IMG/VR virus record: IMGVR_UViG_3300022839_000006
Location: 93,896 to 157,895 of that record
Length of the DNA: 64,000 nucleotides
Strand: one strand, 5' to 3'
Source of the DNA: a virus
The position numbers and the translations under genes are program-made. Shown piece by piece: positions 42,604-48,430 of this stretch (positions within the stretch are counted from its first letter, which is position 1; every line of letters starts with the position of its first letter). A model generated the notes under the pieces. That model saw only the letters and a list, made by a program, of their open reading frames with translations. It was not told the origin of the DNA and made no database searches.

Positions 42604-44096
42604 TACAATCCACCTACAAGTGCGCCACCAGCACTGATTCTCAAATCAGTGCTGCTCCAGTCCTTTTTCACCATGACATAGTAATTTTTCATCTCATCTT
42701 GTTCCATTCTGTGATTTACCGATCTTACTATATACTTGCCACTTAGGTGTTTATTTCTTTCTGGAGAACTTCTGCTTGTACCATCTGCTTGTTGAAACTT
42801 CTTGACGTCCAAATCGATAATGTCTCCAGCAGTAATGTCGAGTCGACCAGGCCCTATAGCAGATACAGTAACACTTTCAATGTGCTTTTCATATGCTTGT
42901 CTATTTGAAATTATTTCTGCATAGTAATTTTCCGAATTTAGAGAATTTGCATCACTCGACGCGTCGCCATTCTTATCATAATTTACAACCACAATGAATT
43001 TCTTCTGAATATCTTCATCGCGGCCAGTGGCTTGCAAACTTCGATGGGAAGCATCTACAAATTTGTTTGTGTGTTTATCTTGTAGCTTTTGATAACTTTC
43101 AATATTGAAATACTTGTCACGCTCTTGGAAATAGTTATACTGGCCGTCATCATTTAGAAGATTTGTTTGTCTTCTGAGAATGTCCAATTCAATCACTTTG
43201 TTTCTATATGCGCCGTTGTAAAGATCATCAAGACTGTTTATTCTGTGGGTATTTTCGATAGTCTCTAAGTTGTTTAGCTGAGCATCAAAAAAGTCAAGCG
43301 TATTTGGTATCGCATCATAATACGTAAAATTGAACAATCTTGTTTCATCATAGTCAGGCGTTTTTATGTCTTCCGCAAGTCGAAATAGATGTTCGTCAGT
43401 AACAAAATGGTAACCACGAGAAGACTCGAAGAATCTATATGTGCACGAGGGGCTGTTGTCAGCTGAATAGGCTCTCTTGGTAAGAAATTCCATTGCTTCT
43501 TCTGCTCTCATAGCAGGAATTATACAACGTGTTCTTCCACTTGTTTCTTCGACGATAAGATCTTTGTTGTCATACGATCTTCTGTTTAATGACTTTGAAA
43601 ATGCATCAGCACTGTTATCAAAGTAATCAGCAAAAACAATTTTTGCCATTTCTGAAATAGGGACATCGCGAAACGGGCGTGTTATTTTATAGGTGCCAGC
43701 TTTGTATGATTGGTACGAGATGAAGTGTAGGTCGTAGTAGATGCCATCGTTTGTGTCTTTTACAGTTACATTGTCAATCTTATAGATGAAGCCAATAAAT
43801 CTAAATGGCTCAGCAACCGCACCTGTTTGAACACCACCATTCTCGTTTATGATTTTTGAATCAGCAAGTTCAAAAACAATCTGCTCTTCGCCTCTCAGCG
43901 GAGTTTCTTCAAGCAATCCAACAGAATCGATTATACGGACTGTGCCGTGCATAGTTTCACTGTTAGTAGATGAATTTAAACTAATCGAAGGGATCAAGGC
44001 TGTTATGTCAAGATCGCGTTGACTATCATCAAATTCAAATCTAATAGTAGCTTTTTGAAGATTGTAATATGTTGGGTTGACAAACGAATCGCTCAT
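42603..44096 (-). CDS. gp27: Baseplate hub subunit, gp27-like
   Basis: 497 aa (T4 gp27 is 391 aa). It begins NLQKATIRFEFDDSQRDLDI and ends with LSGKYIVRSVNHRMEQDEM then YYVMVKKDWS, the pattern expected at the end of gp27/gpD-like hub proteins (GKYIV-x-H). RLDITAGDIIDLDVKKFQQ is the beta barrel segment that precedes it. Directly upstream of gp5 with a 1-nt overlap, as hub partners usually are. gp27 forms the trimeric ring between tube and gp5 spike. I assign it by fold pattern and neighbours; sequence similarity to T4 gp27 is weak by eye. Confidence 0.75.
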   Translation of the reverse strand: MSDSFVNPTYYNLQKATIRFEFDDSQRDLDITALIPSISLNSSTNSETMHGTVRIIDSVGLLEETPLRGEEQIVFELADSKIINENGGVQTGAVAEPFRFIGFIYKIDNVTVKDTNDGIYYDLHFISYQSYKAGTYKITRPFRDVPISEMAKIVFADYFDNSADAFSKSLNRRSYDNKDLIVEETSGRTRCIIPAMRAEEAMEFLTKRAYSADNSPSCTYRFFESSRGYHFVTDEHLFRLAEDIKTPDYDETRLFNFTYYDAIPNTLDFFDAQLNNLETIENTHRINSLDDLYNGAYRNKVIELDILRRQTNLLNDDGQYNYFQERDKYFNIESYQKLQDKHTNKFVDASHRSLQATGRDEDIQKKFIVVVNYDKNGDASSDANSLNSENYYAEIISNRQAYEKHIESVTVSAIGPGRLDITAGDIIDLDVKKFQQADGTSRSSPERNKHLSGKYIVRSVNHRMEQDEMKNYYVMVKKDWSSTDLRISAGGALVGGL

Positions 44097-44344
44097 TCAC
44101 GAAGAGACCTTCTAAATTCTTCGACAATTTGATTGCGATATACTTTATCAATCAAAATAATCTCGCGTTTGTTCTCGTTCATCTGCCTTTCAAAATCATA
44201 CAACCGGATTGGCTTCCACTCATCTGGTATAATCTGCCGAATGGTTATTCTTCTACCTTCTTCAGTCAGAAGAACAACTTCATCCTCTTTTCGCAAGAAA
44301 AGTGTTCTAAACGATTCGGGGCTAATTCTTACAACATCTGTCAT
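44093..44344 (-). CDS. Small conserved protein of unknown function
   Basis: 83 aa, charged, with VVLLTEEGRRITIRQIIPDE and WKPIRLYDFERQMNENKRE. It overlaps both neighbours (4 nt with gp53 upstream, 4 nt with the hub gene downstream), so its translation is tied to the baseplate operon. No motif is recognised. A small baseplate assembly factor is plausible by position only. Confidence 0.7.
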   Translation of the reverse strand: MTDVVRISPESFRTLFLRKEDEVVLLTEEGRRITIRQIIPDEWKPIRLYDFERQMNENKREIILIDKVYRNQIVEEFRRSLRE

Positions 44345-44730
44345 TTTACTACATCCTTATAGTAGTATACAATATTATCAGTTCTTTCTTCGTCCTGAGC
44401 CCACGATATAACATCATACGTGCCACCAGTAGTTCTTGATATATCTGCGTATTTATTGGCAAAGTATTGATTGAATTCTCTTTCGTCCATTACCCATTTT
44501 GTATAGGGATCTGTAATGCCATTCGAAAGCATTACTAACCAAGTATCATCTACTGACCCGTAATAATTTTGAGCAATGTCTTCTGGTTTCTCTCCTTCCC
44601 TCACTGTGTATGGCAAAAAGATGTAGGGATCTTTTAGTAAATCATCAATGATTTTGCTGCGCCTTGTTATGTCTGTAATTGTTTTACCGTCATATTGTAT
44701 CAGGGGAAAATTTGCAAAGTATTTTGACAT
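44341..44730 (-). CDS. gp53: Baseplate wedge subunit gp53
   Basis: 129 aa (T4 gp53 is 196 aa, so C-terminally shorter). FANFPLIQYDGKTITDITRR and YTVREGEKPEDIAQNYYGSV match the family; the latter is a LysM-like PEDIAQNYYG turn. TWLVMLSNGITDPYTKW is the conserved end block. gp53 joins wedges at the baseplate rim in T4. It overlaps gp48 by 1 nt and the 83-aa gene by 4 nt. Confidence 0.92.
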   Translation of the reverse strand: MSKYFANFPLIQYDGKTITDITRRSKIIDDLLKDPYIFLPYTVREGEKPEDIAQNYYGSVDDTWLVMLSNGITDPYTKWVMDEREFNQYFANKYADISRTTGGTYDVISWAQDEERTDNIVYYYKDVVK

Positions 44731-46815: not shown

Positions 46816-47526
46816 ATGTTCAACATCTCAGAGTTTAAAGCAAGAATAGACCGTCACGGCGGTCCTGCTCGCACGAGTTTGTTTGAGGTGGCTATATCAC
46901 CAACGAATAGACGCGGGGAACTAATCGTCCCTGGAGTTATTTCGACGGATGACCTTCGTTTCTTTTGTCAGACTGTATCCATGCCAGGCATCAACCTAGA
47001 GGTAATGCCGTATAGACCAAATGGCTTGGGTTTTACCGAATCAATGCCAATGAACTCGTCTCCCGACCAATTAAATGCGGTATTCATGCTTGATAGTAAT
47101 CAGCGTGTTATGACTTATTTTCATCGTTGGATAGCATCAGTTGTAAACGTGAATGGGAACAGAGGAGACAGTGTAACAGGACTTGCACCTAAGCTCATTG
47201 AATATAAAGATACATATGCTGCATCTGAATTGACCATTAGACACTATTCCACGCATAACCCGTTTGAATATTATGAATGTCGCTACGAGGGTGTGTTTCC
47301 TACTCAAGTCGGCGCACTTGAGTTAAGTTGGGCTGGCGACGGCGCAGCAACAATAACCGTAAATTTCACATACAACAGAATGGTGTATTCTGGGTTTACA
47401 GAGTCGAATGTTGACGTGTCGTCCAGTTTTGTTGGGACACAAGGCTCTACAATAAGAGGCAATAACTTGGCTCAGACAATACAAGACTTCAACACGAGAT
47501 CGGTTGATTTACTTACAACAGTATAA
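46816..47526 (+). CDS. gp54: Baseplate tail-tube initiator gp54-like
   Basis: 236 aa (T4 gp54 is 320 aa). FFCQTVSMPGINLEVM early and FMLDSNQRVMTYFHRWIASV then YECRYEGVFPTQVGALELSW with a final TVNFTYNRMVYSGF match the tail-tube fold shared by gp54 and gp19; gp54 has the equivalent GCIPISVSAPELSYDGDN. Its place just before gp26 and the tape measure fits the initiator role, although gp19 cannot be fully excluded because no separate gp18-gp19 pair is in view. An AAAGG precedes the ATG. Confidence 0.75.
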   Translation: MFNISEFKARIDRHGGPARTSLFEVAISPTNRRGELIVPGVISTDDLRFFCQTVSMPGINLEVMPYRPNGLGFTESMPMNSSPDQLNAVFMLDSNQRVMTYFHRWIASVVNVNGNRGDSVTGLAPKLIEYKDTYAASELTIRHYSTHNPFEYYECRYEGVFPTQVGALELSWAGDGAATITVNFTYNRMVYSGFTESNVDVSSSFVGTQGSTIRGNNLAQTIQDFNTRSVDLLTTV

Positions 47527-47552: not shown

Positions 47553-48254
47553 ATGGCACTACCTAAAATTGAGCTTCCAGTCTACCAATGTGAATTACCA
47601 TCAACAGGCAAGAAGGTCAAATTCCGCCCATTTACCGTTAAGGAGGAAAAGATACTGTTGACTGCTCAAGAGTCAAAGGAAACTGAGCAAATATTACTGT
47701 CTATTAAACAGATTCTGACTAACTGTATTGTTGATAAAGACGTGGCCGAGCTTGCTATTTTTGACGTTGAATATTTGCTTATTCAACTTAGATCAAAATC
47801 AGTCGACAACAGAGTTGAATTTGAGATAACAGATCCTGCAACAGAAGAAAAGATTAAACTTGAACTTGACCTAGGAACAGTAAAGGTAGAGCACAACAAA
47901 GAGCATACGGATAAGATTGTGATTTCCGAACAATATACACTGTTTCTAAAGTATCCAACCATTGACGACTTTGAAACACTGATGTCGAAAGAAGAGCCAA
48001 CTGCGGAAGATAGCTACCAGTTAATGATTTCTTGCCTTGACAAACTTGCATCAGAAGATGAAGTTTTTAACTTTAAAGATTTTCCCAAAGAGGAAATTGA
48101 CGAATTCGTTGAAAGTCTGCACAGTGATACGATCAAAAAAATAAAGACATTCTTTGATACAATGCCTAAAGTCCGCCACGAAATAAAATATAAAAACTCT
48201 AAGGGCGACTCGAACATATTTGTGATGGAAGGAACCCAAACTTTTTTTATCTGA
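47553..48254 (+). CDS. gp26: Baseplate hub / tail assembly chaperone gp26-like
   Basis: 233 aa (T4 gp26 is 208 aa). Family features: LPVYQCELPSTGKKVKFRPF, TVKEEKILLTAQESKETEQI, and an acidic YPTIDDFETLMSKEEPTAED domain. T4-like gp26 acts in hub assembly. Here it ends in ACT TTT TTT ATC TGA; a T TTT TTT heptamer four codons before the stop, a spacer and a stem-loop form a strong -1 frameshift signal that would extend it into a 60-codon open frame. The zero-frame product is the shorter gpG-like chaperone. The gene lies between the tube-fold gene and the tape measure, as lambda gpG does. Confidence 0.85.
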   Translation: MALPKIELPVYQCELPSTGKKVKFRPFTVKEEKILLTAQESKETEQILLSIKQILTNCIVDKDVAELAIFDVEYLLIQLRSKSVDNRVEFEITDPATEEKIKLELDLGTVKVEHNKEHTDKIVISEQYTLFLKYPTIDDFETLMSKEEPTAEDSYQLMISCLDKLASEDEVFNFKDFPKEEIDEFVESLHSDTIKKIKTFFDTMPKVRHEIKYKNSKGDSNIFVMEGTQTFFI

Positions 48255-48312
48255 TGTTGAGCCATACAAGTTTGTCGATATATTACCAAAAAATATTTTC
48301 CATGGCTCAACA
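48227..48312 (+). promoter_or_regulatory. Predicted -1 programmed ribosomal frameshift signal
   Basis: All elements lie in phase. An SD-like GGAAGGAA is at 48227-48234. The slippery heptamer T TTT TTT is at 48242-48248, with its last two TTT codons in the gp26 frame. A 6-nt spacer (48249-48254) is followed by an 11-bp perfect stem TGTTGAGCCAT (48255-48265) pairing with ATGGCTCAACA (48302-48312), loop 36 nt. The -1 frame is open through the gp51-like ORF. The gp26 stop is in the spacer. The stem also covers the ORF's internal ATG (48302). Confidence 0.82.
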
Positions 48313-48430
48313 CCATAAATATAGTATTACAGAATTAGAGGCAATGTTACCGTACGAGAGGGACATTTATTTTGAATTGTTAATTGATTTCATAGAAAAA
48401 CAAAGAGAAGAACAAAGGAATCGAAGCTAA
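48248..48430 (+). CDS. gp51: gp51-like frameshift extension of gp26
   Basis: A -1 frame ORF of 60 codons beginning YLMLSHTSLSIYYQKIF and continuing through MAQHHKYSITELEAMLPY and ERDIYFELLIDFIEK to a basic tail. The YSITELEAMLPYERD core is what I recall for gp51-like small proteins of marine T4-like phages. From slippage the fusion would be about 292 aa. Independent translation is less likely: the ATG at 48302 lies in the stem and has no SD, although a TGATG at 48252-48256 could allow reinitiation giving 58 aa. The stop TAA overlaps the tape measure ATG as TAATG. Confidence 0.75.
   Translation, partial: YLMLSHTSLSIYYQKIFSMAQHHKYSITELEAMLPYERDIYFELLIDFIEKQREEQRNRS

Follow-up and report, generated by a model that had tools for sequence, protein, structure and literature searches.

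We found that gene gp26 of a T4-like virus and the open −1 frame at its 3′ end very probably form one tail assembly chaperone gene of the lambda gpG/gpGT type, from which two protein forms would be made by −1 ribosomal frameshifting. The sequence analysed, hereafter the window, is a stretch of 64,000 nt (positions 93,896 to 157,895 of IMG/VR record IMGVR_UViG_3300022839_000006). In the proposed mechanism, most ribosomes would terminate at the gp26 stop codon at 48252 and release a 233-aa short form, while a minority would slip one base back on T TTT TTT and read on through the gp51 domain to give a long form of 292 aa; this slippage would be stimulated by an SD-like element upstream and a hairpin 6 nt downstream. 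An earlier note, made from the letters of the window alone, had proposed that a −1 frameshift joins gp26 to a gp51-like domain, and the proposal is now backed by the invariance of the heptamer, a switch of coding frame, a covarying stem, a selected SD-like element and unconserved start codons.

Organization of the gp26 locus

Table 1. Features of the gp26 locus, in window coordinates
Feature	Position	Strand	Evidence or remark
Tube-fold protein, gp54-like (baseplate tail tube initiator type)	46816..47526	+	phrog_45, E 1.3e-35
gp26, putative short form of tail assembly chaperone	47553..48254	+	233 aa; phrog_150 2.8e-63, PF12322 1.9e-57
SD-like GGAAGGAA	48227..48234	+	7 nt 5′ of heptamer
Slippery heptamer T TTT TTT, gp26 phase	48242..48248	+	sequence; kept among relatives
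−1 frame extension, "gp51" domain	48248..48430	+	60 codons + stop; phrog_634 3.8e-22
Spacer ATCTGA, 6 nt	48249..48254	+	holds gp26 stop (48252-48254)
5′ stem arm TGTTGAGCCAT	48255..48265	+	fold and compensatory changes
3′ stem arm ATGGCTCAACA	48302..48312	+	contains in-frame ATG 48302
Tape-measure-like protein, 592 aa	48430..50208	+	several tape measure PHROGs matched weakly, at best 1.5e-6

The 3′ end of gp26 reads ACC CAA ACT TTT TTT ATC TGA in the gp26 frame (Table 1). A −1 slippery heptamer is therefore present in phase near the end of the gene and is followed by an open −1 frame, the configuration that marks chaperone genes of the lambda type. The SD-like element 7 nt before the heptamer, the 6-nt spacer holding the gp26 stop and the perfect stem that the earlier note had described were all found in place, with TGTTGAGCCAT pairing with ATGGCTCAACA over 11 bp around a loop of 36 nt. 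The −1 frame runs without a stop from 48248 up to the stop at 48428-48430, which confirms 60 open codons with a gp51-like core, and the phrog_634 (gp51) match begins at residue 2 after the slip. The predicted fusion is 232 + 60 = 292 aa, in line with the length of ~292 aa given earlier. As had also been claimed, the stem buries the ATG at 48302; this is not, however, the only internal ATG, since three occur in the −1 frame, at 48254 (overlapping the stop as TGATG), 48302 and 48344.

Both parts of the gene matched T4-like chaperone families (phrog_150 and PF12322 for gp26, phrog_634 for the extension), the extension being the C-terminal domain of the long form, which the records of relatives call gp51. 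Only a single gp26 is encoded in the 208-kb record of the window: the phrog_150 search matched only gp26 and its −1 extension, and no second, T4-style long gp51 gene was found by it. For the gp26 structure model (pLDDT 89), the second-ranked PDB fold match was the HK97 tail assembly chaperone 2ob9, a weak match (E 1.2, prob 0.60, 63 columns), and sequence searches of the PDB with gp26 returned no convincing relative.

Gene order, which is typical of lambda-type chaperones and not strictly defining, was partly as expected. The chaperone gene lies just upstream of the tape-measure-like gene, whose counterpart is annotated as tape measure in the Cr30 record. Thus the lambda V-G-T-H order suggested by the earlier note holds for the chaperone, the extension and the tape-measure-like gene, but not for the gene directly upstream of gp26, where a gp54-type gene is found and not a major tail tube gene; genes at the same position are annotated as gp54 or tail tube initiator in PX29, OLIVR6 and Mosig. 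The genome encodes three tube-fold (phrog_45) proteins (G000:C1 89202-89738, 140687-141397 and 172004-172513), two of them short and gp19-like and one longer and gp54-like, and the upstream gene was classed as gp54-type because the gp19-like tubes sit elsewhere in the genome.

In another part of the window (44093-44730, − strand), two genes with an ATGA overlap share the coding of the baseplate wedge protein gp53 (phrog_232). The halves, of 129 and 83 aa, match consecutive parts of the profile, and their joint contains no slippery site.

Conservation of the heptamer and switch of coding frame

Relatives were collected as 80 IMG/VR loci found with the gp26 of the window and 162 further loci found with the gp26 of P-SSM2, Mosig and Cr30, together with named phages, and removal of duplicates left 193 distinct junctions. 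Among these junctions, which are related and hence not independent trials (an aligned sample was ~29-75% identical to the window), T TTT TTY was found in the gp26 phase in 192 of 193, the lone exception being G TTT TTT at locus L064; an alignment of the 26-51 junction in relatives was the check that the earlier note had suggested. The first Phe codon was TTT in all 193, compared with 1719/2179 (79%) elsewhere in the same genes, and the base preceding it was T in 192. At 131 of the 193 sites the pair reads TTT TTC, by which the T run is cut to 6. No short −1 frame was found among the distinct junctions with enough sequence. The shift site is shared by phages of Caulobacter, Sinorhizobium, Prochlorococcus, Synechococcus, Pseudomonas, Stenotrophomonas, Vibrio, Pelagibacter and Aeromonas. 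A distant Vibrio phage, VPALA (L091 3660-3880), has an open gp51-like −1 extension without the canonical heptamer, with CTT TTC instead.

The window holds far fewer runs of seven T than shuffles predict, with 6 found against 35 expected, and this strong window-wide avoidance makes the conserved run at 48242 stand out.

The coding frame was evaluated from the synonymous share of single-base differences in 42 close relatives. This share was 0.60 in the 0 frame for the 20 codons before the heptamer, and in the −1 frame it was 0.60 for the 15 codons from the heptamer to the internal Met and 0.65 after the Met. The remaining frames had synonymous shares of 0.07-0.16 and contained stops, while downstream of the heptamer the −1 frame had no stops. 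Purifying selection therefore moves from the 0 frame to the −1 frame at the heptamer.

Selection on the hairpin and the SD-like element

The 72 nt 3′ of the heptamer folded with a z-score of −3.15; a longer 126-nt fold was not significant by itself (z = −1.53). In group A1, to which the window belongs (42 sequences), 89.3% of the stem cells were paired and three pairs showed compensatory changes; the covariation of 0.239 exceeded the values of 0.036-0.118 obtained when the stem was slid. RNAalifold recovered the core of this stem unprompted. The stem had a mean of 9.86 pairs in this group, compared with 7.41 (max 7.98) after synonymous re-drawing with the proteins kept and 9.29 (max 9.55) after shuffling of codons within columns. 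It was poor at one locus, L078, with 4 of 11 pairs.

Other groups have hairpins of their own. P-SSM2-type cyanophages carry a different hairpin of 10 bp and the Caulobacter phage Cr30 one of 9 bp, both of which begin 6 nt past the heptamer; the cyanophage stem is mostly invariant, so that covariation is uninformative there. The evidence is weaker in the pelagiphage-type group, where the named 6-bp stem had 79% paired cells with a few compensatory changes and RNAalifold gave no consensus hairpin. These comparisons indicate an RNA structure under selection within 5-9 nt downstream of the shift site, as expected of a frameshift stimulator. On the 5′ side of the heptamer, SD-like 5-mers occurred in 73% of the 193 relatives against 39% (max 48%) in synonymous re-draws, which indicates selection on the SD-like element.

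Alternative explanations for the junction

The −1 ORF might instead be a small gene in its own right, gp51, whose translation would begin by termination-reinitiation at the TGATG of 48254 or at the ATG of 48302. We consider this very improbable, even though TGATG is a classic coupling overlap that would permit coupled reinitiation in the window, which counts against the fusion, TAATG or TGATG is found in many relatives and databases annotate gp51 on its own. The overlap ATG is missing in many other relatives (TAGCG, TGACG) and is kept as Met in only 23 of the 42 close ones, and it lies 19 nt from the SD-like element; the internal ATG at 48302 is not conserved either, turning into TTG or CTG in some relatives. 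When the −1 frame was scanned from its upstream stop to 17 codons past the slip, 53 of the 193 relatives had no ATG, GTG or TTG near the junction. Because the overlap ATG is so poorly conserved and these relatives have no nearby start, independent initiation cannot, on the comparative evidence, be the general mechanism for the extension. Furthermore, the stretch from the heptamer to the internal Met is conserved at the protein level, and a separate gene needs no invariant heptamer, since FF can be encoded in other ways than T TTT TTY.

Transcriptional slippage on the T run, producing mRNAs that read into the −1 frame, would also yield fusions, and the window does have a T7 run. Its probability is nevertheless minimal, since the run is only 6 in the 131 relatives with TTT TTC and since a selected SD-like element and a covarying stem at fixed spacing fit a signal at the level of the ribosome. 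That the break falls at a homopolymer of a metagenomic record could point to a sequencing error, or to gene decay, in this uncultured genome, but the same stop and frame relation recur in 193 distinct junctions and in finished isolate genomes; the relatives thus refute this explanation, and we regard its probability as negligible. Ribosomal frameshifting on the heptamer is the reading we retain, and the G TTT TTT of L064, the non-canonical site of VPALA, the poor stem of L078 and the weakness of the fold match to a known tail chaperone are the other observations that count against it.

Two-gene encoding in T4 and the T-even phages

T4 gp51 (249 aa) matched phrog_150 over its whole length (2.6e-84) and also PF12322, and its C-terminus matched phrog_634. 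By these matches, the T4 counterpart of the short form is gp26 and that of the complete long form is gp51, which comprises a gp26-like domain plus the extension; in T4 the long form thus has a gene to itself. The earlier note had described gp26 and gp51 as separate genes in T4, which is correct as to their number, but T4 gp51 is not the short extension that this implied. The T4 proteins belong to the same family as those of the window, but they are encoded by two paralogous genes on opposite strands, where the window has one gene and a shift. T TTT TTY is absent from six T-even gp26 genes, T4 among them, and the FF pair is TTC TTT in T4 and KpV477. Loss of the heptamer with both ORFs kept, which the earlier note had named as evidence against frameshifting, was encountered in the T-even phages and nowhere else, and there a full gene of its own encodes the long form.

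In an unrooted tree, in which the short forms are placed with weak support, the long T-even proteins all fell in one clade (100/100) and the T-even short and long forms were split from all frameshifting phages (98/94). This topology fits an origin of the T-even short and long genes from one duplication. The Straboviridae members Aeromonas PX29 and Vibrio V05 retain the frameshift arrangement. A wider reading, to which we give as much doubt as belief, is that a compact signal (an SD-like element, T TTT TTY, exactly 6 nt and a hairpin) drives chaperone frameshifting across T4-like phages with the hairpin re-invented by clade, and that recoding gave way to two genes through a single duplication in the T-even ancestor, with loss of the heptamer following.

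Relation to known systems and implications

Frameshifting of tail chaperones is established, and a 2016 review (PMC5009743) described it as conserved, with T4 as the exception. Vladimirov, Gautam and Davidson 2022 (doi 10.1016/j.virol.2021.11.003) identified the T4-like chaperones, as related by PMC10885494 and PMC12846349; the former reports from that study that in some T4-like phages frameshifting is replaced by two genes, one short and the other a long fusion, and the latter refers to it for slippery poly-T sites in the chaperone genes of T4-like phages. The mechanism as such is already known and, as far as these citing papers convey, so is its T4-like use. In the literature, with Vladimirov 2022 represented by the papers that cite it, we found no description of covarying hairpins with a fixed spacer.

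The window gene resembles lambda gpG/gpGT in that one gene, placed just before a tape-measure-like gene, would give a short and a long form through −1 slippage close to its 3′ end. The likeness is one of arrangement. Lambda has another heptamer; it also differs in the gene upstream, which is gp54-like here and not a major tube, and in the stem and SD-like element conserved here. The gp26/gp51 genes of cyanophages, pelagiphages and exo-T-even phages share the position of the heptamer, the −1 extension and, where a hairpin is seen, the 6-nt spacer, but the hairpin sequences are clade-specific and gp51 is there either a separate short gene or unannotated. A conserved −1 shift at a poly-T site near the 3′ end is also known for the chaperone of Pseudomonas phage Adele and the Vandenendeviridae (PMC12846349), which belong to another phage family and have a GTTTTT motif. 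In none of the frameshift-type records inspected was a joined gp26-gp51 gene annotated. The extension is unannotated in DSL-LC03, S-H9-1 and ACG-2014h (L081-L083) and a separate gene in other records.

What comparison itself demonstrates is the conserved shift site, the apparent translation of the −1 frame, the covarying stem and the two-gene encoding in T-even phages, whereas we infer the slippage, its efficiency and the binding partners of each form. If the two forms act as lambda gpG and gpGT do, the tape measure protein would be coated by the short form, and the few copies of the long form would, through their extension, bring in tube-type subunits as tail assembly begins.

The window locus adds what appears from sequence to be a well-supported case to the known frameshifted chaperones. 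A comparison in 2010 found cyanophage gp51 to be ~20% of the usual length and gp51 to be absent in Aeh1, and left both unexplained (PMC3037559); frameshifting would explain the short cyanophage gp51 and its reported absence in Aeh1, and also why T4 has been called the exception to conserved tail-chaperone frameshifting. It suggests that, in several hundred public genomes of T4-like phages, the annotation of gp51 should be changed to the end of a gp26 frameshift product, and the family would offer a natural comparison between recoding and gene duplication as ways to set a protein ratio.
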